Positions 9,700 to 64,000 of a DNA stretch of 64,000 nt are shown here, in pieces; position 1 is the stretch's first letter, and each line of letters starts with the position of its first letter. The notes under the pieces were generated by a model that made no database searches, had not been told where the DNA came from, and worked only from the letters and a program-made list of their open reading frames with translations. The stretch lies in assembly GCA_022453515.1 (NCBI GenBank), contig JAJNNY010000100.1, positions 19,241 through 83,240 of the forward strand, read 5' to 3'. Source of the DNA: Astrocystis sublimbata. Lineage: Eukaryota; Ascomycota; Sordariomycetes; Xylariales; Xylariaceae. A program made the position numbers and the translations under genes.

Positions 9700-12600
9700 T
9701 CATGACTCCTGCTTGTCCGACTCCTGCTTGTCCCCCTCCTCTTCAAAGATATCTTCTTGTTCCTCGCCGTCGCTCGCGTCCTCGACGTACTGCACTTCAT
9801 CATCTTCGCGTATAGGCTGCAGTTTCACCTCCTCCATCTCGACTGGGAGGCCTTGTTCTTCACGTAGCTGCTTGACCTTTGAGACCGTCATCTCGTAGAC
9901 AAAATTACCTAGATGCTCTACACCCTCCATAGTAGCTTCATTGGGAGCCGAAGTTCCCTCCTCTTCGGCCAAGACTCTCTTAGACGGCCACATCTCGCCC
10001 GTCGATAGCATTAGTTTGTCCGGTCGCTGGAGTAATAGCTCAAACGCAGACCGAAGCTCATAGCACGCCTCGAATACCTCTCTTCGTCCGACGATGTACA
10101 AGCCAAGGCGGGCACGGGAAAGCGCGACTGTCAGGCGCCGAATGTCACGAAGATATCCGACCCTCGACGTACGTGTTAGCGAGAGAATGATATCTAAACC
10201 TTGTTAGCGCGTGGTAATTTTAAGTACATAGCAAGTTAACTTACAGTCATTTTGTTCGCCCTGGTATTTGTCGACTGTCGTGACAATCTTCGGCATGCCG
10301 AAAATAGCCCCGTTCGAGCATCGAACGGCCAGGACGTCTTTTACAAGTGCTCTCTGGCCGGCATATGTTGTTAAAATACTAATCTTCGACGCCGGGTAAC
10401 CCAGTAGTCGCATATACTGATAAAGCGCAACGGCGTACTCAGCTTCACCCAGATTCTGAATGAAGTGCGGTGTGGGTTCCATCTCTCCCTGGCCTTTGTA
10501 ATCAGGTACGTTGATAAACTGATAGTCGTACTTGAAACCAGCGTTGGCAGTCCGAAATTCACTCAGACTTTCGACGTGTGGCAAATTCCCAAGATTCGGA
10601 TATCTCCATTGGTAGAGGGCTGCTATGGACGGTCGTGCACGACCCTGTTGGTCAAGTGTAATGACCGGTATTCCCAAGCGAACGAGACGGGAGAACAGGG
10701 ACTGTTCAAGATTCGCATAGTGTCTAAAGGCCAGACTTTGAATTACTGGCGAGTTCTGGTAGTGATCACCGCAGAGAACGACTCTCTGCAGGGCCAATTG
10801 TCCATCTTTGGGCTTTTGCATAGCCAACGGGATAAAGTTTTCAATTTCAGTAATCTGGGCGGCTTCTTCCATCACCACGTTGTCATAGTGGAATCCCAGA
10901 CCTGCAATCTCGGACCGCCGCATAGCAGCGTGTGTCGATGTCATAGCAATAATGCGAGCTTCGTTTGTAAGGAGGTAGTTGGCCTTGTCACGATCTCGTC
11001 GCAAGATTTCAAATGGCTGAACGTCCTCCAATTCCGAGAACATTTTCGATATGTGTCGGTAACATCCTTCAGCAACGTCAACCACTGCCGGTCGATCGTC
11101 TTCAGTAGGAAAAAGGGGTTGGGGTGCGTTGGAGAAGAATTGATGGAATGGGAATGCGCGTATGACATCTGCAGCGGATGAGCTCTCGTCGTTGATTATT
11201 TCTGTGAACTTTTTCCAGGTAGGCTGCACATAGACCGAATTGAAATAACCAGCCGTCTCTGCTGAGTTTCCATGAGCACCTGGCGCGCCCATGCTGGCGG
11301 CAAGTCGATTCACCTCATGCAGATACCGGTCTCTTATCTCCAAGAACGATTCCACCCGACCATGTTTACTGAAATTCCCGTCAGTGTCGAGTTCTTCCTC
11401 ACCATGGCCGAGTCGTAGAAGATGCCTCTCATCAATATCTAAAGCCACGATCTTCGCAAACAGCTGGTTGAGTGCCTGGTTAGAATGGGCTATCAAAAGC
11501 GTTCGCTGCTCAGGAAAGTTATGGTAGATATTATTGATGATCTGGGTTGCAACATCAGTTTTCCCTGTCCCAGGTGGGCCAACGATGACGGTCAAGCCTG
11601 GTTGAGTTCCAGACATGATTGCCTCGATCTGCGCCGAAGTGAACTGGACTTTGTTCAGCTTGGGGGCGTCTACTGGATAGGGCCCTAGGTTTGGTGGCTT
11701 ATACGTTGACACTTGATATGTTTCAATTTCAGCGATCATGGCAGGCTCCGCACCTCGTCTCCTCTTCTTGGATCCTTTCGAAGACAGCTCTTCCGGTGGC
11801 CTATCGACCGATTCAAGAAGGTATGGGGGACCGAAACTACTCGATACTTCAAAACCTGGTTCAATTGTCTTTCCGGGAAGACTAGCAACAAGATGCTGCC
11901 AGTCTACAAATGTGTCCCTAAAATCGACCTTGCCGACGCGATTCGGCAGATGCTTGTAAGTCGCACCGGCGGGATCCCCATAGCCAAGGAAGTTCTCATG
12001 TAGCCATGAGGCCAATGGGACTTCGGAAAGTGTCAGAGTCCGGATAGATTCGAGTACAGGTTTGAAGTTGTTTTCTCTACCGCTCCGGCGAACAAGGAGG
12101 TTGATTTGCTCGTACACGTCGGGTTTGCCTCTCGAGACACGGTCCGCATCCTCTTTATATGTTTTGGGATCCAGTCGTAGCTGCATTCGCCGGGTGGATG
12201 ATCTATTCGACCCATTGAAGTAGGCAGAGGGGTCCCTGATAGACTTTCCTTTGTCGTCTAGGATCTGAGCAACCTCAGCCGTGCGAACCGCAACAATCCC
12301 AAGCTTCTTCAACTCGGAAGTATTGTTATCGCTCCCGTTCGTTGCAGTTGTTTGCATGCTAGCATCCACAGCGACAAGGAAGACGACATCGTCGGGCCGG
12401 AGAGAATCCCACTCTCGTCGGACTCGATCCCCGAGTCGACGGAAGTCCAGTGAGATTTCCGCTCGAACAGCAGATGGTTTGTCGTCGCCGACCTGGGGCG
12501 GGACTACTTCTAAGATGGAAGGCCGGGACACGGATAGGGCCATCTTTGACGACCCAGCAAAACCGGTCTCACCCGAACGTCTCACTTCTGGTCGTAGCCG

Positions 12601-14094
12601 TCGTAGGACGTCACTGATGTCCTTCCTTATGCCGTAGAACGACTCGCACCGATAAAGGATCAGAGCCCGCCACAAGAAATCTCCCACGGACAGATACTGG
12701 AGCTTCAGCTTTGGTAGCGCAAGTGGTCGTGAGCCGTCGTAGTGATCGGTTCGTAGAATGCTCTGGTCGAACAGGCTGTCCTCGGTGGGGAATATGCTCA
12801 TCTCCCGGGCCGTTTCTTGAAATGTTTTCCGTTTCTCGAACGTCGACAGCAATACCTCCATCAGAAACCTCCTGTCAATAGCCACGCCGGTCGAGTCCGG
12901 ATAGCTTGTCCGCAACTCGAGGAGAGATGTGAGCTTCGTCAGTTCATCATCGGCTAAGATTTCAAGAAGATTTTCGAGATCACGCCGCCTATCAATAGAG
13001 GCATAATTCGAGAGGGCCAAGACAGTAAGCTTCTCTTTGAAGTGCCGTAGGGCTACCCTTTGTAGCTTTCCAAGGTCAGCGCAGTGTCGATCGTATGCTT
13101 CCATTCGGCTGTGTTGGGCCCCCGTCTGGTCGTCGATGGAGAAATGAACAAAATGGCTCAATAAAGAACATTGATCACGGAGAAGCGCATTGGCTTCGTC
13201 GTTGAACATAGGCGACAAGCTCAAGGCCGGTAATATGTGCAAATCTTGAAGCAAGGTGTTGACATATCGCCGCGTAGGGAGCTGACTCAAAAGATCCGTC
13301 AAGAACTCGACGAAGCGTTCGCAGTACAGGACCTGCTCCTGCGTACTCTTCTCTCCGTACAACAAATGCAGGAATTCTAGCGTGAGTGTGTACAGCCAAG
13401 CTCGTTCGAAGCGTAGGCGGGCCTTGGTGGCATCGTCGGCGGAGTCGTATCGCTTCCCTGCGGCTTTCCACGACTTCTTGAGCTGGGGTGTCTGTGCTAG
13501 CTTGGTCTCGCGCTTCGCATCGGACGAGAGGCTGTGCCAGATGGCGATGGACACGAGGGGTGCGCACTCCTTCCTCACGCTGTTCCAGTCCAGACTCTGG
13601 AAGGCGAAGATGGTGAAGTTGAGGAGGTGTGTGCGGACGGACCAGGACAGGGTCTGGTCGAGACTCATGGACAGGACGCGGGTGAAGAGGCTCGAGAACT
13701 CGGCGGGGCGGTCTTCGAAAATGGCCCATGTCTCGAGGCGCTCGCGGGCCTTGACGTTGGTCAACAGGGCGATCAGGAGGACGTGGAAGTTGGACGAGTC
13801 TTCGGAGTATCCGGGCCAGAGGTAGCTCTCGAGAGTCTGGAGGCCTTCGAGGACAAGCAAGGACTTATATGCGAAGGAGTCCTTCTCGAGGACGTCCCAT
13901 ATGTCCCGCTTCAAGACGTCGTTCTTGACCTTGATCTTGGCCTTGGAGGCGCGCTTGGTGATCTTCAGCCAGTGCTGGTTTGCCAGCTGGGCGAACTCGG
14001 ACTCACCCTCCAGGTCGGCAACGGTGGGCCGGGCGGGCGGTTTGTCGCGGGTCTTGGCCTTGGCCGAGCTCCTCAGACGCTTCGCGGTCGACAT
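9700..14094 (-). CDS. cwf11: Intron-binding protein Aquarius (spliceosomal SF1 helicase)
   Basis: Two exons, 14094-10245 and 10193-9700, joined across a 51-nt intron (donor GTAAGT, branch GCTAAC, acceptor TTTAG) give 1447 residues. The intron splits the helicase motif EQNDYIILSLTRT, which confirms the junction. Residues ~1-800 are the helical ARM-type scaffold of Aquarius. The helicase core has Walker A GPPGTGKT at about 840, motif II EEAAQ at about 1074, then GDHYQ and the Q-G-R-A-R-P motif. The tail is acidic and ends with a duplicated DKQES. Aquarius binds introns upstream of the branch site and helps remodel the activated spliceosome. ATG 14094 is used because the upstream in-frame start would be GTG. 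Normal length for the fungal family. Confidence 0.95.
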
Positions 14095-14953
14095 TCTCAC
14101 AGACTAGGGCCACCACGACCGGAGGCGAGGTGACGGCGAGGGTGGTGATGGTGTGTAGCTGGATGCGAACGAGGGCCGGGTCTCAGCACCAAGCTTGCGG
14201 GCGGGAAGCGCAAGACGGTTGCGAGACTGGGTGCGATTGGAGACGCATGAGACTCAGGACGTCATCACCTTTGAATGCGATGGCTGATTCTGGTGGTGGT
14301 GGACCGTGGTGGCGTGAGCTTGGAGTCTTGGAGTCTTGAAGTGAGCACGGTGCTTTTTTCGTAAGAGAAGGTTATAAGAGGCCGTGTTTTCTGGCCATGA
14401 CTGCCTCGTCGCGTTGCCCTTCCCCAGCTAAATTTACAGGTACCTAGGACCCTAGCACCCTAGCGCATGTCCGGCGCATAATGGGGCGCTAGAACAAATA
14501 TGGAATTCTGGAGTAATACCTCAGGTACTAATGGCGTATACCAATAACCACGGTTAATATTACTTTAAATATATATAATAAGGGTAGAGTTCTTTTATTA
14601 TCTCCTATTTTTTCGGTATATTTATTGTATTAAAATAAACAAGGTAGCAAACAAAGTCACTTTAGTAGACCTGCTAAAAAAGGGTATAAACTTTCTTTTG
14701 TCAATCGCCTCGCCTGGCACGATCACCGTTGCAGACGCCTACCAATCTAGGCGCGCTACCTAGATAGTAGTTTTACCTAAAGGCTTATCAGCATTGCTGT
14801 TACCATTGTAGAGAGGTAAACAAATTAATAATTATACATAATAAGTTTAAAGTAAGCTTATTACTTGATTATGTCTTTGTTTTATCAAAGAGCGTCGATG
14901 GGATTTGACTAGCAAGTACAAGATAAAGAACGTGATACCCCACGACCTTCTAT
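14095..14953. other. Intergenic region with an AT-rich island
   Basis: Promoter side of the Aquarius gene and 3' side of the chitinase gene. About 14510-14870 is markedly AT-rich (TA-rich runs at 14560-14650 and 14820-14870) next to GC-balanced flanks, which resembles a short RIP-degraded relic. No coding remnant or terminal repeat could be identified. Confidence 0.45.
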
Positions 14954-17900
14954 TCATTCCACATTGGGGTCAATCTTCCAGATCGCACAGTTTGAAGTGA
15001 CCGTGCCACCCTGCTTATACTGCGTACTAGATGTATCACACTTGTCGATCGCCTTGCGGAAGATGCGGCCACAATCATCCGAGGTGCCGGGTCCGTCAAT
15101 CGTGAAGCGGCAACCGTTAGTTACCGTGACTTGCATCGTCAGGTACTCCCAGCAGCCCGCAATACCGCCCGTGAAGAGACACTCGGCCACAGTGCCCCCC
15201 GTGACGTCGATGTTCTGCAGCCTGTACGTGAGCGTGTGCTCCGCGCCGTCGTTGCTGCCGTCGAGAATCCGGCCCTTGAAGTAGTTACAGAAGGCGTTGA
15301 CGCCATCGATCATGCTCCCTCGCGACGTCTCTGCTCCGCTGTTGTAGCAGTGGAGACTCTCGGTAGACGGGTTTGGACGGGGCGGAGTCGGGTTGGGGGA
15401 CGGAACTGATGTCGGGGGAGGCGTGGGCTTAGAAATCGTCTGTGTCCCTGACGCGCCGAAGTTGGGGTTGACGTATGTAGGCACTGGTAGCGCAAACTCC
15501 AAGGCACACTGCTCATCTTCGTCCTCCTCCTCCTCGTCGCCGGGGTCGTCCCCCTTGGTATCTGTCGGTTGGGGCTTGGCTGTCGTTGGTTTCCCCGTCG
15601 GCTTGGGCCCATCTTGTTCCGGCGGCGTGGGTCTTGGCGGCGGGCTCGGATCAATGGGGTCGGCAAAGTCGTTGCCGCCGTCTATGCAGTCGAGTAAACA
15701 CGGCTGATGACAGAAGATTAGACAGGGTTTGCCGCACCCCGACTTGCAGATGGGCCCCGGCTTTCCCGGCTTATATGTCACAACAGGGAACACCGCTGCT
15801 GCTACGGTCGTCGAAGTTGACTTGGACGTTGTGGAGCTTGTTGAGCGGGTAAAAGAATACGGGTATGGTGGAGGGGTGATTGTTCTGGTCACCGGTGGAT
15901 GTGTGACTCCTTTTGAGCTCAGTGGATTGGGGTCATCGATAATGGTGAACGGGGGAGGACGAATGCTTTCCGTGACGTAGAACGTCGACAAGACGGTGGT
16001 GGCTGTGCGAGTATCCGTGACGGTGTACTCCCATACTGGGATTGAGCTGATGACAAGCGGAGGGATCTTGAGCGTTGTTGTCTGGGTGATGCGTGTCCAG
16101 CTTCCTGAAATAGACCAAGCCACTTCCAACGACGTCGTGTAAGGGGGGAACGTGACTGTGGACGGCGTGGCGAGTGGAAGTGGAGGCAGAATAAAGGTGC
16201 AAGGAGGTTCGCAGTTGATGACGGGTGAGGGCTGCTTCCAGATCGAAGGATCTATGTACACGATCGACTCGTCTCCCTCGCCCTGGCCACCACTATTGCC
16301 ACCGCTACCTCCTGGATCCCCCGAGCTGGAGTCGCCAAGGCCATCCGGGGTGTTGCCGCTTCCCGCACCGGAAAACAGGTCGATGCTCCAAATCACCGTA
16401 CCGCCATAGCAATGGCTGCTTGTCCACGTTTTCTTCATGGCGATGGTCTGCAGATCGTCGTAGCCAACCCACTGATCGCCCCAGACAAGGTATTTCATCA
16501 TGGCCTGGGAGTCGAGGATGGGTTGGACGCCAATCTCTGGGATGATGATGGCTTGGATCTCCTGAAGAGACATGACGCCGCCGAAGTTAGTGCAGGGTGC
16601 TGGGTGACTCGTACCACTCCATTTGCAACCCACACTTGGGCATTGGACGTTGGCTACGGTATAGCCTCGACCGTAGTAGGCAAGACCCAAGTTGATCTTG
16701 CTCGGGTCCACGCCGTCGTACCATAAGGGCAGAGTCCAATTGTAAAGCTCAGGGATGTTGGTCTGCCCAAGAACGACAGGTCCAATATCCACAACAGTCT
16801 TATCCCAAGGGCCATGCAGGTCATAGGAGAGCAAGTTGAAGAAGTCGACGTAAGGTTGCATCTTGATGGGATCAAACCACCTCAAATACCAGTAGCTCGC
16901 GGGGATCGTGGCACTGATGCCGAAAGACGTGCCGTAGGCGGCTCTCATCTCTTTCAGAAGAGACACGAAGTTCTGTGTGTCGGCAGGTCTTCCGGCGCGA
17001 TCGGGTGCTCCTGGATACTCCCAGTCAATGTCGACACCCTGGAACCCGTACTGCTGCATGAACGACTTGACAGAGGCAATGAAAGTAGCTCGATTAGCGG
17101 CCGTGGAAACTATGTCACTGAATGTTGTTTGGGTCGGCCCTGGGTCATTGAAGTCCCAACCGCCAATGGAAACCCAAGTCTGGAGTTTGGAGGACTTGAG
17201 TTTCGTGAACTGGGTGTAGAGTGGTACATCGCGACTGTCCATGGGGACGACCTGAAAGCTCTTCGGGTCGATACTGACAAATGCGAGGAATAAGTGTGTG
17301 AGACCTGTCGTGTTGATCTGGGCCGGAGTTATGCGCTCGCATTGTCGAGAGTAAGAGTTTGAAACCTGGTAGTATGCCATGGTTCGGCCTAGAGCCGAGC
17401 TGCCGCCGCAGCTGGGTGCGTCGATTACCTTGCATGAGCCGAAACCTGCCTGGCACGGAGCAGAAGGCGTGGGAGATAGACAGAACTCGGCACCAGTCTG
17501 ATGAACCCTGACGTCAGCATCGATATCACTCATGGGGTTATTCGCAACGACTCACGCCACAGTATCCATAGTAGCTACAGCAAACGTTCAGGGAACAAGA
17601 AACGTTATTATTGAGACTATCGCGACCGCACAGAGCCTTCGCATCACCTGGAGGGTGGCGATCAGAAGAAGCTGAATAGAAGGGGGTATTGGCACAGATA
17701 GTACTCACATCCGTTAGTGCAATTTCCTTTCCCACAGTTCTCGGGTCCATAACCACATCCACCCTGGTTGTTACAACACGATCCGTCTGGGCAAGGACTG
17801 GTAGCACTGCATTGATTCTTCTTCTGTCGGGCAAAGACGCTATCGTTCAGGGTATAGTCCAGAGCTTTGTGATGTTGTGTACGACTTAGACTACCGGAAG

Positions 17901-19621
17901 CCGAAGTAGCACGCCGCGTATAGGTCGGCACTATGTTGGTGGGAAGACGACTCAATATCTGGTTCAGGTAAGGCACTACGTGAACTTTTGCAAGTGTCTG
18001 AATGTAGATACGCGCAATATCCACGAAAGGGAGCGGGGGACTGTCTGGCAACGTTTCAAATTGTTGGCGGACGGGCGAGACCATTGTGATGTTAGTATTT
18101 TTCTTTGATACATCGTTGCCATCGCGAGCGTTCAGGTTGAATTCGTCCCGGAACACTGCCGTCTGGAAACTTGTGTTCGTGTAAAGATTTTGCTGTATCT
18201 AGAAACTAATTAGACTGACATGATCATTACCTTGCTCTCGTGGCCGTGATACACCTTACCTCATCAGCCGTCATGGGTCTCGCATAGCTCATGACACTAC
18301 CGTTGCTGAACACCAGACCATAATTCATCAAAGGCGACTCGTTGGCCCGACCGAATATGTTGTTAACATAGGCTCCGTCAGCGTCTGACCATTCCACGTA
18401 GGCACCCGGATCATCATCGTCATCCTGCTCAATATTAGCTTTGCTCACTGCTAGGCGCAGCACCATTGAGAGAGTGATTCTGTAAGTAGTAGACGAGATT
18501 TTTGAGGCACCTACATTCCACGTTGTTTGAAATTTGAAGTTGATAAGGGTCTGTCCCGGGCTTAGCTGCATCAGAACATTTCTCAAGATGTTATGCGACA
18601 TCCCTTGGATGTCCTATAGCCCATCAAATTAGTACGGACAAGAATTATTAAGCGTTTCGGACAATATAAAGTCCCATACTTGCTCAGAGTTAACTCCTGC
18701 TCCCAGAGCTCTCAATTTGGAACTGCATTTGTAATTCTGGGGGGCACAGTAGGTATTTGCTCCACCGCCACCTTGCGTCGTCCTGTCAAGAATTGGTGAG
18801 CTGCACTTCTCATCGAGCTTGCTGGGACGTTGTTCATATGGTGATCCTACTCACGTAGCTGGCGGCCACTCGTCGCAAGACCAAAAGGTTCCGGAGGGGC
18901 CGTTGTTCGCTGCATTTGCGATGACATTGTAGCCCGGCATGCCAAAGGTCACACCATTCTAAATCAAAGGTAAGTAATCACACACATCAAGAAAACTTGG
19001 AAGGGATCTTGAACATCATATGTAACAAATGTGTTTACTGACCTGGGCATAGCGTTGGCCGACATATCCATTGCTATAAGACGAACCTGCAAGTACCACA
19101 GGCGGCTGATTGCCTCTTGGACATCCGTTTGCGGGATTAGTGTACCAGTTTCCGGGGCATGCCAAAGTTCTTCGGTTATCTTTATTGGCCGAATTGGTGT
19201 CACTGATCCCCAGAGTCAGCTCTTAGTTCGGTCTTCTAGTCTGTATTACCGCACGGCTCGACAGTCTCGGTTCAAGCTAGTGGAAAGGCATATATTATTA
19301 GGCTTTCACCCTTACTACCAAGTATTTGTGAGTGAATAGAACATTGTTGTACCAAGGGTTGTCAAGTTGTCAAGTTACCAATGTCAACGTTATGAAGTTG
19401 TTTCCCCCCGGAGTCAGTCCCGGATTTAATAATCCCAGATTACCGGCAGCAGCATTTCCAACAACCTGCAAGAGAGGGTTGACCGAATTCACATTTCGAC
19501 AGATAGACGGCAGCTTCGCGCAGTTGTATACGAGCGTTGCAGCTTGGCCATGCACTATGTCTGCAAGAAGACATAGTTGTAGAAGAATAACATAGAGGAA
19601 GGGGGATGGTGAAAACGCCAT
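14954..19621 (-). CDS. Secreted NucA/NucB-like, CBM18 and GH18 chitinase (killer-toxin-like)
   Basis: Nine predicted exons: 19621-19379, ~19219-19043, 18958-18855, 18782-18680, 18613-18515, 18424-18260, 18198-17709, 17647-17556, 17497-14954; ~1338 residues. A signal peptide (to about residue 25) is followed by a NucA/NucB-type DNase-like region (~30-230): NCAKLPSIC, NKDNRR, CDEWPPA at ~168-174, a Gly-rich turn, then N-x-x-Q...PGQTLINFKF. Residues ~260-430 are unassigned. Cys-rich chitin-binding modules (CCNNQGGCGYGPENC, VCCSYYGYCG) lie at ~440-515. GH18 follows, with the full DxxDxDxE signature (GVDIDWE, Glu ~651), as in subgroup C chitinases. Then come a Thr/Pro linker with a CxxxCGKPC patch and a C-terminal Cys-containing domain. 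Junction 1 is uncertain (acceptor GAG at 19220). All other junctions keep frame across motifs. Divergent from the LysM gene. Confidence 0.85.
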
Positions 19622-21036
19622 CTTGAGAACTAAAACCGCTGTGCGGGCTCGCGAAGAATCCCAACACACCTACAGAGTGTTTCTGAAAGACTACGGGAAT
19701 TGGGAGATAGTATTGCTTGAATTGATGTGCGGATAGATCCGCGAAGCGTGGTGGCGTGTACCGGCAACCGAGTTTCCGTTCAGCTCTGCGGTGCTCAAAA
19801 TCTCACTATACTAACAACGGGTCGTGACTGGTCTCGCAGTCTACGTTATCAAGCCAATCAAGGTCCGCTGCCCTTGGAGTAGCCCTAAAGGCTATACAGG
19901 CTGGGAAATTGCTATACTCGAAATTCGAAGTCACCGAAACCAGAGCAATCTAGAACGCCCTCATAGCCATCTCCAGCATAAGCTTACTCAATAAGACCCT
20001 GTGTAAATTAAGTCCTACAGAATAGGTGACCATTCTTCTCACACCGGTTTCAGTTAAGATCTCGTTCCAAGCCCGCTGAGTTGGAATAGCCCAAAAAGCT
20101 ATGCAGGCTGGGAAATTGCTACACTCGAAATTCGAAGTTACCCAGAGCAATCTAGAACGCCCTTATAAGTATCTCCAGCATAAGCTTACTCAATGAGACC
20201 CTGTACAAATTAAGTCCTGCAGAATAGGTGACCATTCTTTTCACACCGGCTCCGGTCAAGAACTCGTTCTAAGCCCGCTGAGTTGGGGTAGCGTAGCCTT
20301 GTCTTGCTACCGCAGATATATGTAAATATTTTTTTCGATATTTATAATTCGATAACGAAACATTCGTGTCAAACGATAATTATGGCTAGTGCTTATAGTC
20401 AAGGAGCTGGTTGAGAGACTGCTAAGTTTCCCGTCACCAACCCCGAATATAGTGATCAGCAGCATCGGCGAGTGAGGGGTGCCTAGGTGGCTTTTGGCCC
20501 CCATGCATGATGCATGGATGAATTACCTGGTAGCAAGCTCCTGCAGCCTGCAGGAGTTGCCATCAATGTTTTCTACTTGGTCAGAATACTGAAGGTGACC
20601 TCGGCTTAGTTACACTGGTCCTTAGAGTATTTCTTAGTCACCAACACCGGCAGCTCGACGGGCAATAGGCAATAAGACGCGAGGGTGGTCTGTCCAAGCT
20701 TTTACCAAGCTTTCTGAACTTCTAAAAATAGCCTTGCTTCAAGAATCGTTGGGGAAAAACACATCATTCTACGAGGCTTGCTATAATTTCAATATTTTGG
20801 AGAAATGCCTCCCCCTTCGGGTGGCATCTCGCGTTGTGATGAGACTAGCGAAAACTTGCATATGCGAATGGCGGCTTGCGTAAGGCTCTCACAGCAGGCA
20901 CACCGATATCCTTCTCATCATCTCCTTTGTGCTGTATCATTCGAGATTTTGCGCCAGAGATCGTTTACAATCCTGAATCTACACATAGACGAATGCGTCT
21001 CCCGCAGTGAGACATATTGATATCCTCATTATCAAG
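19622..21036. promoter_or_regulatory. Shared divergent promoter region of chitinase and LysM genes
   Basis: 1.4 kb between two start codons that face away from each other, so it should carry both promoters. About 29% of it is the tandem duplication listed separately. No other gene was seen. A short AT-rich patch lies at about 20320-20360. Co-regulation of the pair is inferred from layout only. Confidence 0.55.
19877..20290. repeat. 207-bp tandem duplication, two copies
   Basis: Copy 1 (about 19877-20083) and copy 2 (about 20084-20290) share long blocks, for example GGCTGGGAAATTGCT, CTCGAAATTCGAAGT, AGAGCAATCTAGAACGCCC, CTCCAGCATAAGCTTACTCA and AGAATAGGTGACCATTCTT. Differences are scattered, mostly transitions. 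The boundary phrase (CCGCTGAGTTGG...TAGCC) recurs at the junction and at the right end, with a diverged form at the left end. By eye identity is well above 80%. Confidence 0.85.
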
Positions 21037-22197
21037 ATGCTCAAGTCCATTTTCTTTCTGGTCGCCTCAGGGCCATTCGCTATTGCATCTTTGCTACATG
21101 ATATTGGGCTCGGAGACTTACACTCGCGAGCGGCGGCTATCAATACGACATGTAGAACGAACTACACCACCAACCTCTGGAGTAACTGCGCTCAAGTACT
21201 CAGCGAATTCAACCTCACGTTGACCTTATTCCAAGAGATCAATCCCAGCATCGGACAAAGCTGCGCAAACTTCATCCCAGGCAAAGTGTATTGCGTCGCA
21301 CCCGGTAACGCACCATCCTTCACCTTTTACTCGTGTTCCAAGCCTTGCTGACTTGTTAAGAAAAGTGACCGGGACTGCAACGCCAGTCTCGACAAATGGC
21401 ATGTGTGGTCAACAGCAGAACTGGACAAGCACCTGCATCGGGAGTCAATGGGGAAACTGCTGTGGCGTTGGGGGATAGTGAGTCTTGATGATATATCCAT
21501 GCGCTATTGTGGCCTGTTCTTACATCGATCGCGATGCAGCTGCGGCACAGGAGCAGACTATTGCGGGCCAGGCAATTGCCAAGAGGGCACTGTGAGTGTT
21601 CGTCACAGTTAAGTGTTTTCTCTACACGCTGTGATGCTAACAGGCGTCACATAGTGCGACGGAGCCCCGATCCCTTATAGCACCAATGGATTGTGTGGAT
21701 CTCAAAACGGCTGGCTTGAGTGTCCTGCAAAGTTCGGCGTATGCTGCAGTCAATACGGAAAGTAAGCTCTTCCCCACTCTGTCTTCAATGCTGGCATAGC
21801 ATATTCAGGAATCTCAGATGAACTGAACATGTCTTTGGGCCGTAGCTGTGGAAGCGGAACAGATTATTGCGGCTCCGGATGTCAGAGTGGTAAATGCGTC
21901 GCATCGACAACGACGTCCTCAACGGCAGTGGTAACGCCAACCCAGAAGCCAGGTTCCGTCAGCAAAGACGGAACATGTGGTTACGGGGGTGGTCTGATAT
22001 GCAGTGGATCAACTTTCGGTAATTGCTGTTCAGCAGCTGGCTATTGTGGATCGGACACATATTCGTGTCAAGATATTCTAGGTTGGTAAGTAGACTTCTC
22101 TCAACATTGACACTTGTCACGGCTCTCTTGTGCTCACGAGCCGCATAGTCAATCGGCATTTGGAACGTGTGTTGTTACTGGCTTTATGCCACATTAG
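21037..22197 (+). CDS. Secreted LysM protein with three hevein (CBM18) modules
   Basis: Six exons: 21037-21304, 21366-21477, 21540-21591, 21655-21761, 21846-22085, 22149-22197; 275 residues. An N-terminal signal peptide (MLKSIFFLVASGPFAIAS) is followed by one LysM at about residues 38-87 (NYTTNLWSNCAQVL...INPSI...GKVYCV). Three Cys-rich hevein-like modules follow (motifs NCCGVGGYCG, VCCSQYG-CGSGTDYC, NCCSAAGYCG), with a Ser/Thr linker before the last. Introns repeatedly fall inside the modules and keep frame. Intron 1 uses an AAG acceptor and removes an in-frame TGA. The protein should bind chitin or its fragments. LysM proteins beside subgroup C chitinases are known from Trichoderma (TAL6 type), where self-protection or regulation is proposed. 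The Met at 21007 is in frame, but 21037 gives the better signal peptide. Confidence 0.85.
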
Positions 22198-61849: not shown

Positions 61850-62478
61850 AGCTAGTGATCCAAACTAAACATCGCGACCCTTATCTTTCTTTTCGGAAGC
61901 TTGCTAAGATCTTCTACGTTTGCGACCGTACCCTTAAGCGACGTTTCGAAAGCCACCAACCAAGGCATATTATAAACTAAAAATCACAAAAACTCGATAT
62001 ATCTAAAGAGGACACGATTGCCAGACGTATACTCGAGCTAGATTCGCGAGCGTTTCTACCCCGGTTTCGATACGTTGAAGAAATAGCTAATATCCTTTAA
62101 CGCGTCTAATACGCGATACCCGTGGGTAAGAACTAGGCTTCGAACTTTATATAACAACGACCTAACCTCCGGACACGTTTAAATCGTTAAATTAATAATT
62201 AGCGAGCCTTTAATAAAAATCCTATAAGTTATTACGCGTGGTTTACGCTTATAACTAATATAATCGCGAAGCATGGTATTATAGTTAAGGATATCTATAA
62301 TTTTAACAAATCGGGGTTTCTAATGGGTATAATTATAACCGGAATGGTTGTAACAAGCTTAAAAAGATATGGAAGACCTAGGCAGGCCTAGTAAGGAGGC
62401 AGAGAATGGGTTATAGTGGTTTAAGCTATCAATTTTTAAGGCTGGGCAGTACCGCTATATATTATCTTCGCGGGCGCG
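61850..62478 (+). mobile_element. RIP-degraded Fot1/pogo-type transposase remnant
   Basis: Conceptual plus-strand translation, allowing stops, reads as the N-terminal half of a fungal Fot1/pogo (Tc1/mariner superfamily) transposase: a helix-turn-helix-like part near 61870-61960 (KLAKIFYVCDRTLKRRF), EDTIARRILELDSRAFLPRF near 62010-62070, EEIANIL, and later WFTLI, AKHGIIVKDIYNFNKSGF and LMGIIITGMVVTS up to GREWVI and AVPLYIIFAGA. In that family the DETGF acidic motif is expected where NKSGF stands; D-to-N and E-to-K are G-to-A changes typical of RIP. The coding part stops abruptly at the LTR-like start at 62479. It is non-functional. Confidence 0.8.
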
Positions 62479-64000
62479 TGTTACGAACCAACTGCAGGAT
62501 AGGCCAGTTGGGAAGGCCCAGCGCAGCCACATGACGAGGGGTCATGCAAGGCAAGTACGGATACGTGAATATCGGATACAAGGGTATTCGATATTACGTG
62601 ACATGTCTCTGTAACGTGACAGAGAATCTCTGTAGTCTCTAAGAAACAATAGAGACGGGTCTCTACGGTCTCTAAGAGACAATAGAGATAAGTAATTGTG
62701 TGAAGGAAAGAAATGCTATATAGCTTTGACGGTATTCCTATATATCTAGTCTTTTTTTATTTTACTATTTAATTTAAGTATACTAATGGTTTTTAGAATA
62801 GGAGTAACCTCCTAACGATTTAATAAATAATACTTTATATTGTTTAGCGATCCTTTATTATAAGCTTAGCCTTTATTTTTAGGAATATAAACCTATTAAA
62901 ACCCCTATTCTACCTTATATTTAGTATTATAAATAAAACAATCGTTATATTTTAAATAGTTTTGTTTAATTAAGCTATAAAATAAGCTAAGTAATAGGAT
63001 ATAATAGCTACGCAAGCTTAAATACCTAATATAACTTAGGAACAAATCCTAAGAATTAATTAGTTAAATAAAACTAATAAATAGTTTAAAAACTAACTAT
63101 TTATAATATTTAAACTAAAGTATTATAAACTAATTCAATTAACTATATTTAATAAAAAACAAGACTAATTAAAGGGATTTTTAACCTAAGCTAAGGCCTA
63201 TATATAGTATTTTTAAAAAAACTTTCTTTTAAAAAAAGAAAAGATCCTTTGTATTATAGGATTCCTTACTAGAGAAGTACTAAAATAGTTCGAGCTAAAA
63301 ATAAAAGAATTTATCGAAAATAAGAAAAAAGATTGGTTAGAAAATACTAAAAAAGTATTCGCTAATATAAAAGGATTTAAAAAAGCTTTTATAGATATAT
63401 ATAATAATCTAAAAGCCGAAAAACGAGTAGAATAAAAACTACTAGACCTATAATAAACTAGGTTAGCTAGTAAGTATACTACCGAGTTTAAAAAAATACT
63501 TATACTTATAATTTAAAATAATAATAATAACCTAATATCTATATTCTATAAAAGATTAAAAAACGAAATCTAAAACAAATTATTCTAAATCAAACAACTA
63601 AAAAAACTATATAACTATATTACATTAGTAATTAAAATCGATAATTATCTGTATAAAAAACACATATAAAAACGAGAAAAAGGAGCCACATATATAGCCA
63701 ATACCAAGAAGGCATAAAAAAATTAATCCACAGCCACAGGAACACACCCAGGCCCAATAAAGGTTAACGCCGTAGAAAAAGACCTTAAGCAAGTTAAATA
63801 TTATAATTACCAACAAATAGGACATTATATACAAAAATGCCCTAAACCCTAAAGGGAACATAAGAACAAAAGAGTACCTAAGGGAAGACAAGCGTTAGTA
63901 GCCGAAAACAGTACGCAATAGATCGCAATAATATATATAAATAGTATACTAATAGTTAAAAATAGTTAAAAATAGGGACTAGCCAAAAGGCGAGTTATAT
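62479..64000 (+). mobile_element. Degraded Ty3/gypsy-type LTR retrotransposon, 5' part
   Basis: An LTR-like start TGTTACGAACC at 62479 follows the broken transposase. A GC-normal 5' stretch (62479-62720) precedes very AT-rich DNA. From about 63180 the plus strand, with stops, reads as a gypsy Gag: FELKIKEFIENKKKDWLENT, FANIKGFKKAFIDIYNN, ASKYTTEFKKILILII, IFYKRLKNEI, NYITLVIKIDNYLYKK. A zinc-knuckle-like KYYNYQQIGHYIQKCPK lies near 63790-63850, where Tyr replaces two expected Cys (TGT to TAT). Many CAA/CAG/TGG-to-stop changes fit RIP. The element runs off the right edge and is inactive. Confidence 0.8.
62628..62693 (+). repeat. Two 33-bp tandem units within the presumed LTR
   Basis: Units 62628-62660 and 62661-62693 share GTCTCTAAG and ACAATAGAGA at the same spacing and differ at a few positions. 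Likely part of the LTR transcript-regulating region. The function is unknown. Confidence 0.75.

Follow-up and report, generated by a model that had tools for sequence, protein, structure and literature searches.

A predicted secreted precursor joining a NucB-like nuclease region to a chitinase in the fungus Astrocystis sublimbata

Can one fungal gene supply both an enzyme that opens a chitin-containing wall and a nuclease, and what would such a product be for? The question is raised by a window of 64,000 nucleotides (the whole stretch analysed) from Astrocystis sublimbata, lying at positions 19,241 to 83,240 of contig JAJNNY010000100.1 in an assembly of 42.6 Mb and 189 contigs. On its minus strand, from 19621 to 14954, a fusion gene of nine exons forms a single open frame of 1329 amino acids (model M1), with eight introns that are all GT...AG and all phase-consistent. 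The chances appear about even that it specifies a zymocin-like, wall-breaching nuclease precursor used in antagonism of other fungi. Its features are as follows, residue numbers being those of the 1329-amino-acid product of the splice adopted at junction 1 (GTTGAC/CAG).

14954..19621, minus strand: whole coding region, 9 exons, 1329 amino acids
19621-19389, 19202-19043, 18958-18855, 18782-18680, 18613-18515, 18424-18260, 18198-17709, 17647-17556, 17497-14954, minus strand: exons
19547..19621, minus strand: signal peptide, residues 1-25, by eye (hydrophobic run up to ...DIVHG)
18284..19540, introns included, minus strand: NucA/NucB-like nuclease domain, residues about 28-280
18869..18874, minus strand: Asp160-Glu161, counterparts of NucB Asp93-Glu94
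18728..18910, one intron inside, minus strand: PF14040 match, residues 148-184 (27.7 bits, cut-off 23.8)
18680..18688, minus strand: SEQ, residues 198-200, helix start of the beta-beta-alpha motif in a homologue model, probably corresponding to the region of NucB Asn117
17709..18198, minus strand: exon 7, a single open exon covering the last part of the nuclease segment and running on into the first chitin-binding-like module
17916-17911, minus strand: RR, residues 383-384
17824..17835, minus strand: FARQ, residues 410-413, predicted Kex2-type site, cut between Arg and Gln
17709..17811, minus strand: chitin-binding-like module 1, residue 418 onwards (seen only by its Cys pattern; score sub-threshold at 10.4 bits)
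17453..17630, minus strand: chitin-binding module 2, PF00187, residues 458-497 (30.1 bits, cut-off 27.8)
16379..17386, minus strand: GH18 catalytic domain, PF00704, residues 520-855 (202 bits)
14957..16267, minus strand: Pro/Thr-rich tail and terminal Cys domain, residues 893-1329, homologous to the tail of a GH55-like fusion on contig C175

One predicted secreted chain thus carries a PF14040-type nuclease segment together with a complete GH18 domain, as had been proposed, the DxDxE motif of the latter being intact as DIDWE (residues 638-642). The PF14040 match expected in the N-terminal region was found above its cut-off; it covers profile positions 39-75 of 100, under half, and an NCBIfam scan of the N-terminal part gave no match. 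The nuclease region, originally ended at residue 230, reaches about residue 280, and of the two chitin-binding modules proposed in tandem the second is borne out by PF00187 while the first is recognised by its cysteine pattern at a sub-threshold score. The domain scan gave no LysM match within the protein, a CBM18-type module being present.

Junction 1 had been singled out as an exception in phase, but two phase-consistent splices exist there, GTTGAC/CAG or GTAACT/AAGAG (1338 amino acids), and so there is no defect. They differ by nine amino acids near residue 78, within the nuclease domain and N-terminal of the PF14040 match, and the sequence of homologue P0005 is closer to the second. Intron 5 is taken as spliced because homologue P0001 lacks its residues, which rules out its retention. 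As originally argued, the locus is very probably not two adjacent genes, because exon 7 runs without a stop across the nuclease/chitinase junction and the single methionine in residues 296-520, Met327, is followed by no signal-peptide-like stretch (by eye).

The architecture is no single oddity and recurs in other fungi. With the whole protein as query, 50 proteins were found at E <= 0.001, 11 of them with at least 92% query coverage; the two nearest are both from Xylariaceae, and the top match (Xylariaceae sp. FL1651, in a model without signal peptide) is 84% identical over 94%. A query with the ChtBD1-GH18 part gave 663 matches, of which 120 were listed. From these searches 152 distinct proteins were retrieved, 149 with GH18; the counts below describe retrieved matches and not fungi at large, nuclease types were assigned by hidden Markov models (HMMs) built in this analysis, and some relatives labelled "none" are incomplete gene models. 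An N-type nuclease like that of the window occurs in 29 of the 149, N-terminal to GH18 in every case, which argues that the fusion is more than chance, and a second NucB-like type (C-type) occurs in 13, C-terminal to GH18 in all 13; a NucB-like domain thus stands at one end of 42 of the 149. P0088 is a weak N-type member (E 0.013, earlier HMM), while the C-terminal domain of the P0137/C1 type falls short of a PF14040 match and is linked to NucB by motif and by our own profiles. A hand tally of Pfam lists for the same 149 gave subtilase in 14, M35 protease in 3, GDSL in 1 and LysM in 2; 87 carry none of the appended domains counted here. Three chitinases scanned individually, P0019, P0022 and P0033, carry a subtilase or M35 domain C-terminal to GH18. 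In a tree of the relatives (147 rows, FastTree only) there were 30 label changes against a shuffled mean of 55.9, the count of changes being inflated by the incomplete "none" models. The N-terminal 417 residues as query, in a search admitting only proteins of about 229-730 amino acids, found just three proteins (240-312 amino acids), every one on a contig shorter than 3 kb.

Further nuclease-bearing genes were found in the same genome. On C175 (L012) nine exons, as placed here, encode 1582 amino acids with a signal peptide (by eye), an N-type nuclease (AEQNWQ...AH..LR), and a double PF12708 region, and the tail is homologous to that of the window protein; the double PF12708, together with further sequence motifs, we take to be GH55, beta-1,3-glucanase-like. 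Its nuclease, for which PF14040 over one exon gives 19.0 bits, below cut-off, retains CDE and EQ. The remaining loci are candidate single genes. C136 (L011) has GH18 followed by a C-terminal PF14040 (35.8 bits), C1 (L037) has GH18 followed by a domain that shares 45% identity with its P0139 counterpart (E 4.1e-43) and has no PF14040 match, and C13 (L038) has a C1-like layout with weaker matches (E 0.001 and 0.04). An unusual layout is seen on C57 (L029, G000:C57:75000-84500), with a GDSL-like domain, FG-GAP repeats, the shared tail and a C-terminal NucB-like domain; GDSL (16.6 bits) and PF14040 (13.5 bits) are both below cut-off there, and a NucB-like profile from which it was left out gives E 4.8e-8. 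A C-terminal nuclease query of Aspergillus type, derived from P0143, found nothing in this genome and also missed C57, making it uninformative. Weak tail matches at C57:297845 and C152:59045 are apparently spurious. That nuclease and tail are kept while a chitinase is exchanged for a beta-1,3-glucanase-like enzyme points, more than any other observation, to a fungal wall as the target, although attack and digestion would both fit.

The nuclease domain of the fusion protein may be a metal-dependent enzyme of NucB fold. In NucB, activity is abolished by changing the counterparts of His53, Asp93, Glu94 and Asn117 (PMC5758888; excerpts, as for all papers cited here). Of the 29 N-type members, 24 have the Asp-Glu pair as CDE (21 by pattern, and P0058, P0070 and P0088 by eye) and P0018 has CEE, the stretch being missing from the models of P0013, P0016, P0036 and P0118. 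In the SEQ region, all seven sequences of alignment A2 share the Glu and the Gln. The predicted structure of homologue P0051, from a 27-row alignment, has a beta-beta-alpha fold resembling NucB; only this second model entered the structure search, an earlier one from 21 rows having been dropped (predicted local distance difference test 56, residues 111-202 under 50). A single-sequence search of the PDB gave no match. With an N-type profile two ribosomal chains (E 0.25, 0.29) outrank NucB (E 1.1-1.3), which makes that search weak taken alone, while a C-type profile found NucB entries only (E 0.044-0.47). N-type and C-type profiles align by hhalign with probability 99.6 over 57 columns, both inputs having been selected around the shared motif.

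Whether the product stays in one piece is a separate matter. Dibasic sites were scored in the 15 amino acids ahead of the first chitin-binding cysteine in 25 of 30 N-type rows (window included), the other five having no recognisable module start. [KR]R occurs in 16 of these 25, against 965 of 8193 upstream stretches, and by our own reading eight of the remaining nine, the window's FARQ among them, have a lone Arg before Gln; P0017 has neither. Judged by the cleavage specificity of Kex2, 24 of the 25 members that could be scored therefore have a Kex2-like site at this junction. Among the paralogues, KR precedes GH55 on C175, and KR or RR precedes the C-terminal nuclease on C136, C57 and C1 (by eye). 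The two halves are thus probably separated during secretion, so that the single polypeptide originally envisaged would hold for the precursor and probably not for the mature product. The window protein has 7 cysteines before the site and 39 after it. Eleven models have 7 or 8 before it, and seven of these, the window included, combine 7 with an odd number after; the others are P0141 (7/42), P0007 (8/41), P0014 (8/33) and P0008 (8/38), and the remaining models have fewer before the site, many through missing exons. Such counts are compatible with a possible interchain disulfide tether.

In the course of events we infer, comprising cleavage, tethering, uptake and killing, the gene product would be a precursor, destined for secretion, in which two tools are coupled. 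A Kex2-type protease in the Golgi would probably cut it after FAR, leaving a nuclease with prosequence on one side and, on the other, a long-tailed GH18 chitinase able to bind chitin. Each part would have an unpaired cysteine, by which the two would perhaps stay tied; the chitinase would dock on and then open chitin in the wall of another fungus, and the nuclease would degrade nucleic acid at or inside the target cell. One gene would so encode a division of labour like that of zymocin.

The neighbourhood bears on how a producer might be protected. A divergent neighbour, in which LysM is seen by eye and PF00187 scores 21.2 bits, below cut-off, is placed as follows.

21037..22086, plus strand: divergent neighbour with a LysM-like stretch and chitin-binding modules

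Its LysM-like exon has no Pfam match. Across the genome PF01476 gives 14 matches in 10 clusters. Judged by eye, 7 of the 10 clusters are divergent neighbours, at no more than 4 kb, of a GH18 gene or of the nuclease-GH55 gene; two others share the strand of a GH18 gene and immediately precede it, probably as part of that gene, and one lies elsewhere. In Clonostachys, with the pair lysm2/chiC1, LYSM2 is proposed as a wall shield against the fungus's own chitinases (PMC7176902), and in Trichoderma the pair tal6/tac6 is described as without protective effect (PMC4392113). Between the fusion gene and the LysM-like gene, at 19874-20286, there is a tandem repeat of two copies, with a 202-bp period and 87% matches. 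At 10204-14103, minus strand, a large open reading frame matches AAA helicase domains and, at 531.5 bits, the N-terminal domain of the spliceosomal protein Aquarius. The guanine-plus-cytosine fraction falls to 0.30 at the window end (62001-64000), where the 83,240-bp contig also ends.

Several observations weigh against a wall-breaching nuclease weapon. The NucB metal ligand Asn117 is apparently Glu/Gln in this protein, and the EGG of the family has its Glu replaced in the window's clade (QGG or NGG), so that nuclease activity is perhaps weakened or absent. The junction in the window protein has a single basic residue, and dibasic sites also occur in 32 of the 41 scorable relatives without N-type nuclease (41 of 123 being scorable), by which the site is probably ancestral and need not have evolved for release. 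The LysM-like gene is the only candidate neighbour, no dedicated immunity gene having been identified, in an analysis in which nuclease inhibitors were not searched for. The Debaryomyces plasmids compared below showed no killer effect tied to them (PMC8472843).

Weapon and digestive enzyme had both been offered, and the sequence does not decide between them. As the main rival reading it is quite possible, if on balance doubtful, that chitinase (or beta-1,3-glucanase) and DNase, secreted in matched amounts, break down dead hyphae for nitrogen and phosphorus, entering no living target. The fungi bearing the fusion, by their record names, have varied lifestyles and include lichens and saprotrophs, protease and esterase fusions fit as well, and a Kex2 cut requires no joint action; digestion, however, needs no fusion, let alone repeated re-fusion with different wall enzymes, and the divergent LysM neighbours fit self-protection in attack, though also growth on chitin. 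An unlikely alternative holds that the nuclease fold is kept as a folding or targeting prodomain with catalysis lost in the window's clade. The residue changes at the Asn117 position and at EGG suit it, as does the position of the domain upstream of the prosequence, with which it would be removed, but the Asp-Glu pair is retained in those 24 of 29 members (25 with CEE) and the C175 paralogue keeps CDE and EQ beside a different partner. A merger by prediction of two adjacent genes is highly improbable since, although the gene is known here from DNA alone and protein databases contain merged predictions, one open exon covers the junction, the chitinase would start inside it without signal peptide (by eye), and fusions recur in other genomes.

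A wider proposal can be made tentatively, somewhat short of an even chance: killer toxin-like chitinases and their glucanase counterparts may form a fungal analogue of polymorphic toxins. A secreted chassis would combine two interchangeable parts, an enzyme that opens the wall (chitinase or beta-1,3-glucanase) and a payload (a subtilase, an M35 protease or, at either end, a NucB-type nuclease); Kex2-type cutting would provide release, and a divergent LysM gene would shield the producer's wall. Bacterial polymorphic toxins likewise combine variable toxic domains with a shared chassis (PMC3482391); the present system differs in being fungal, in bearing its appendage at either end and in the immunity gene not found, within the limit given above. 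For killer toxin-like (subgroup C) chitinases the described role is to breach the wall so that other antifungal molecules can pass, with no cargo named in the excerpts (PMC8715425). The window gene resembles them in its GH18 and CBM18-type module, its long protein and the LysM-like gene next door, and the NucB-like domain on 42 of 149 relatives, with the nuclease and tail on a beta-1,3-glucanase-like enzyme, offers a concrete, testable cargo. By term search, "nuclease" and "peptidase" are absent from the main text of two chitinase surveys.

The nuclease itself shares PF14040, the Asp-Glu pair and (in the homologue's model) the beta-beta-alpha fold with Bacillus NucA/NucB, free enzymes of about 110 amino acids with Asn117 (PMC5758888), from which it differs in being larger, cysteine-containing and chitinase-fused, with SEQ in the Asn117 region. 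Titles and abstract openings found for PF14040 or NucA-NucB with chitinase or GH18, killer toxin-like chitinase with nuclease, and GH55 with nuclease, in a literature covering few subscription journals, pointed to no such fusions in filamentous fungi; a NucA/NucB entry stands in a table of a Diaporthe paper (among PMC6960344, PMC11433127 and PMC6131884). A single secreted chain with ChtBD1, GH18 and a NucA/NucB part is encoded by ORF2 of the Debaryomyces hansenii linear plasmid pDH5A, where Kex2 motifs precede the DNase part (PMC8472843). That gene lies on a yeast cytoplasmic plasmid, its nuclease is a fragment listed after the chitinase and it has a LysM/autolysin part, whereas the window gene is spliced and apparently chromosomal with an N-terminal nuclease. 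The GH18-NucA/NucB chain as such is therefore already reported.

The comparison with zymocin made at the outset proves apt. In zymocin of Kluyveromyces lactis and in the toxins of virus-like elements (VLEs), GH18 chitinase and chitin binding are likewise paired with a nuclease, which in zymocin is a separate gamma subunit, a tRNase, and in the window is fused and of PF14040 type (PMC8715425, PMC8472843). Zymocin and VLE genes are extrachromosomal, whereas the window gene is spliced, on an 83-kb contig and beside a spliceosomal gene. The nuclease of the zymocin gamma subunit is not known to be related to NucB. If the proposal is true, zymocin-type warfare would reach beyond the plasmids of yeasts and into ordinary chromosomal genes carried by filamentous ascomycetes.
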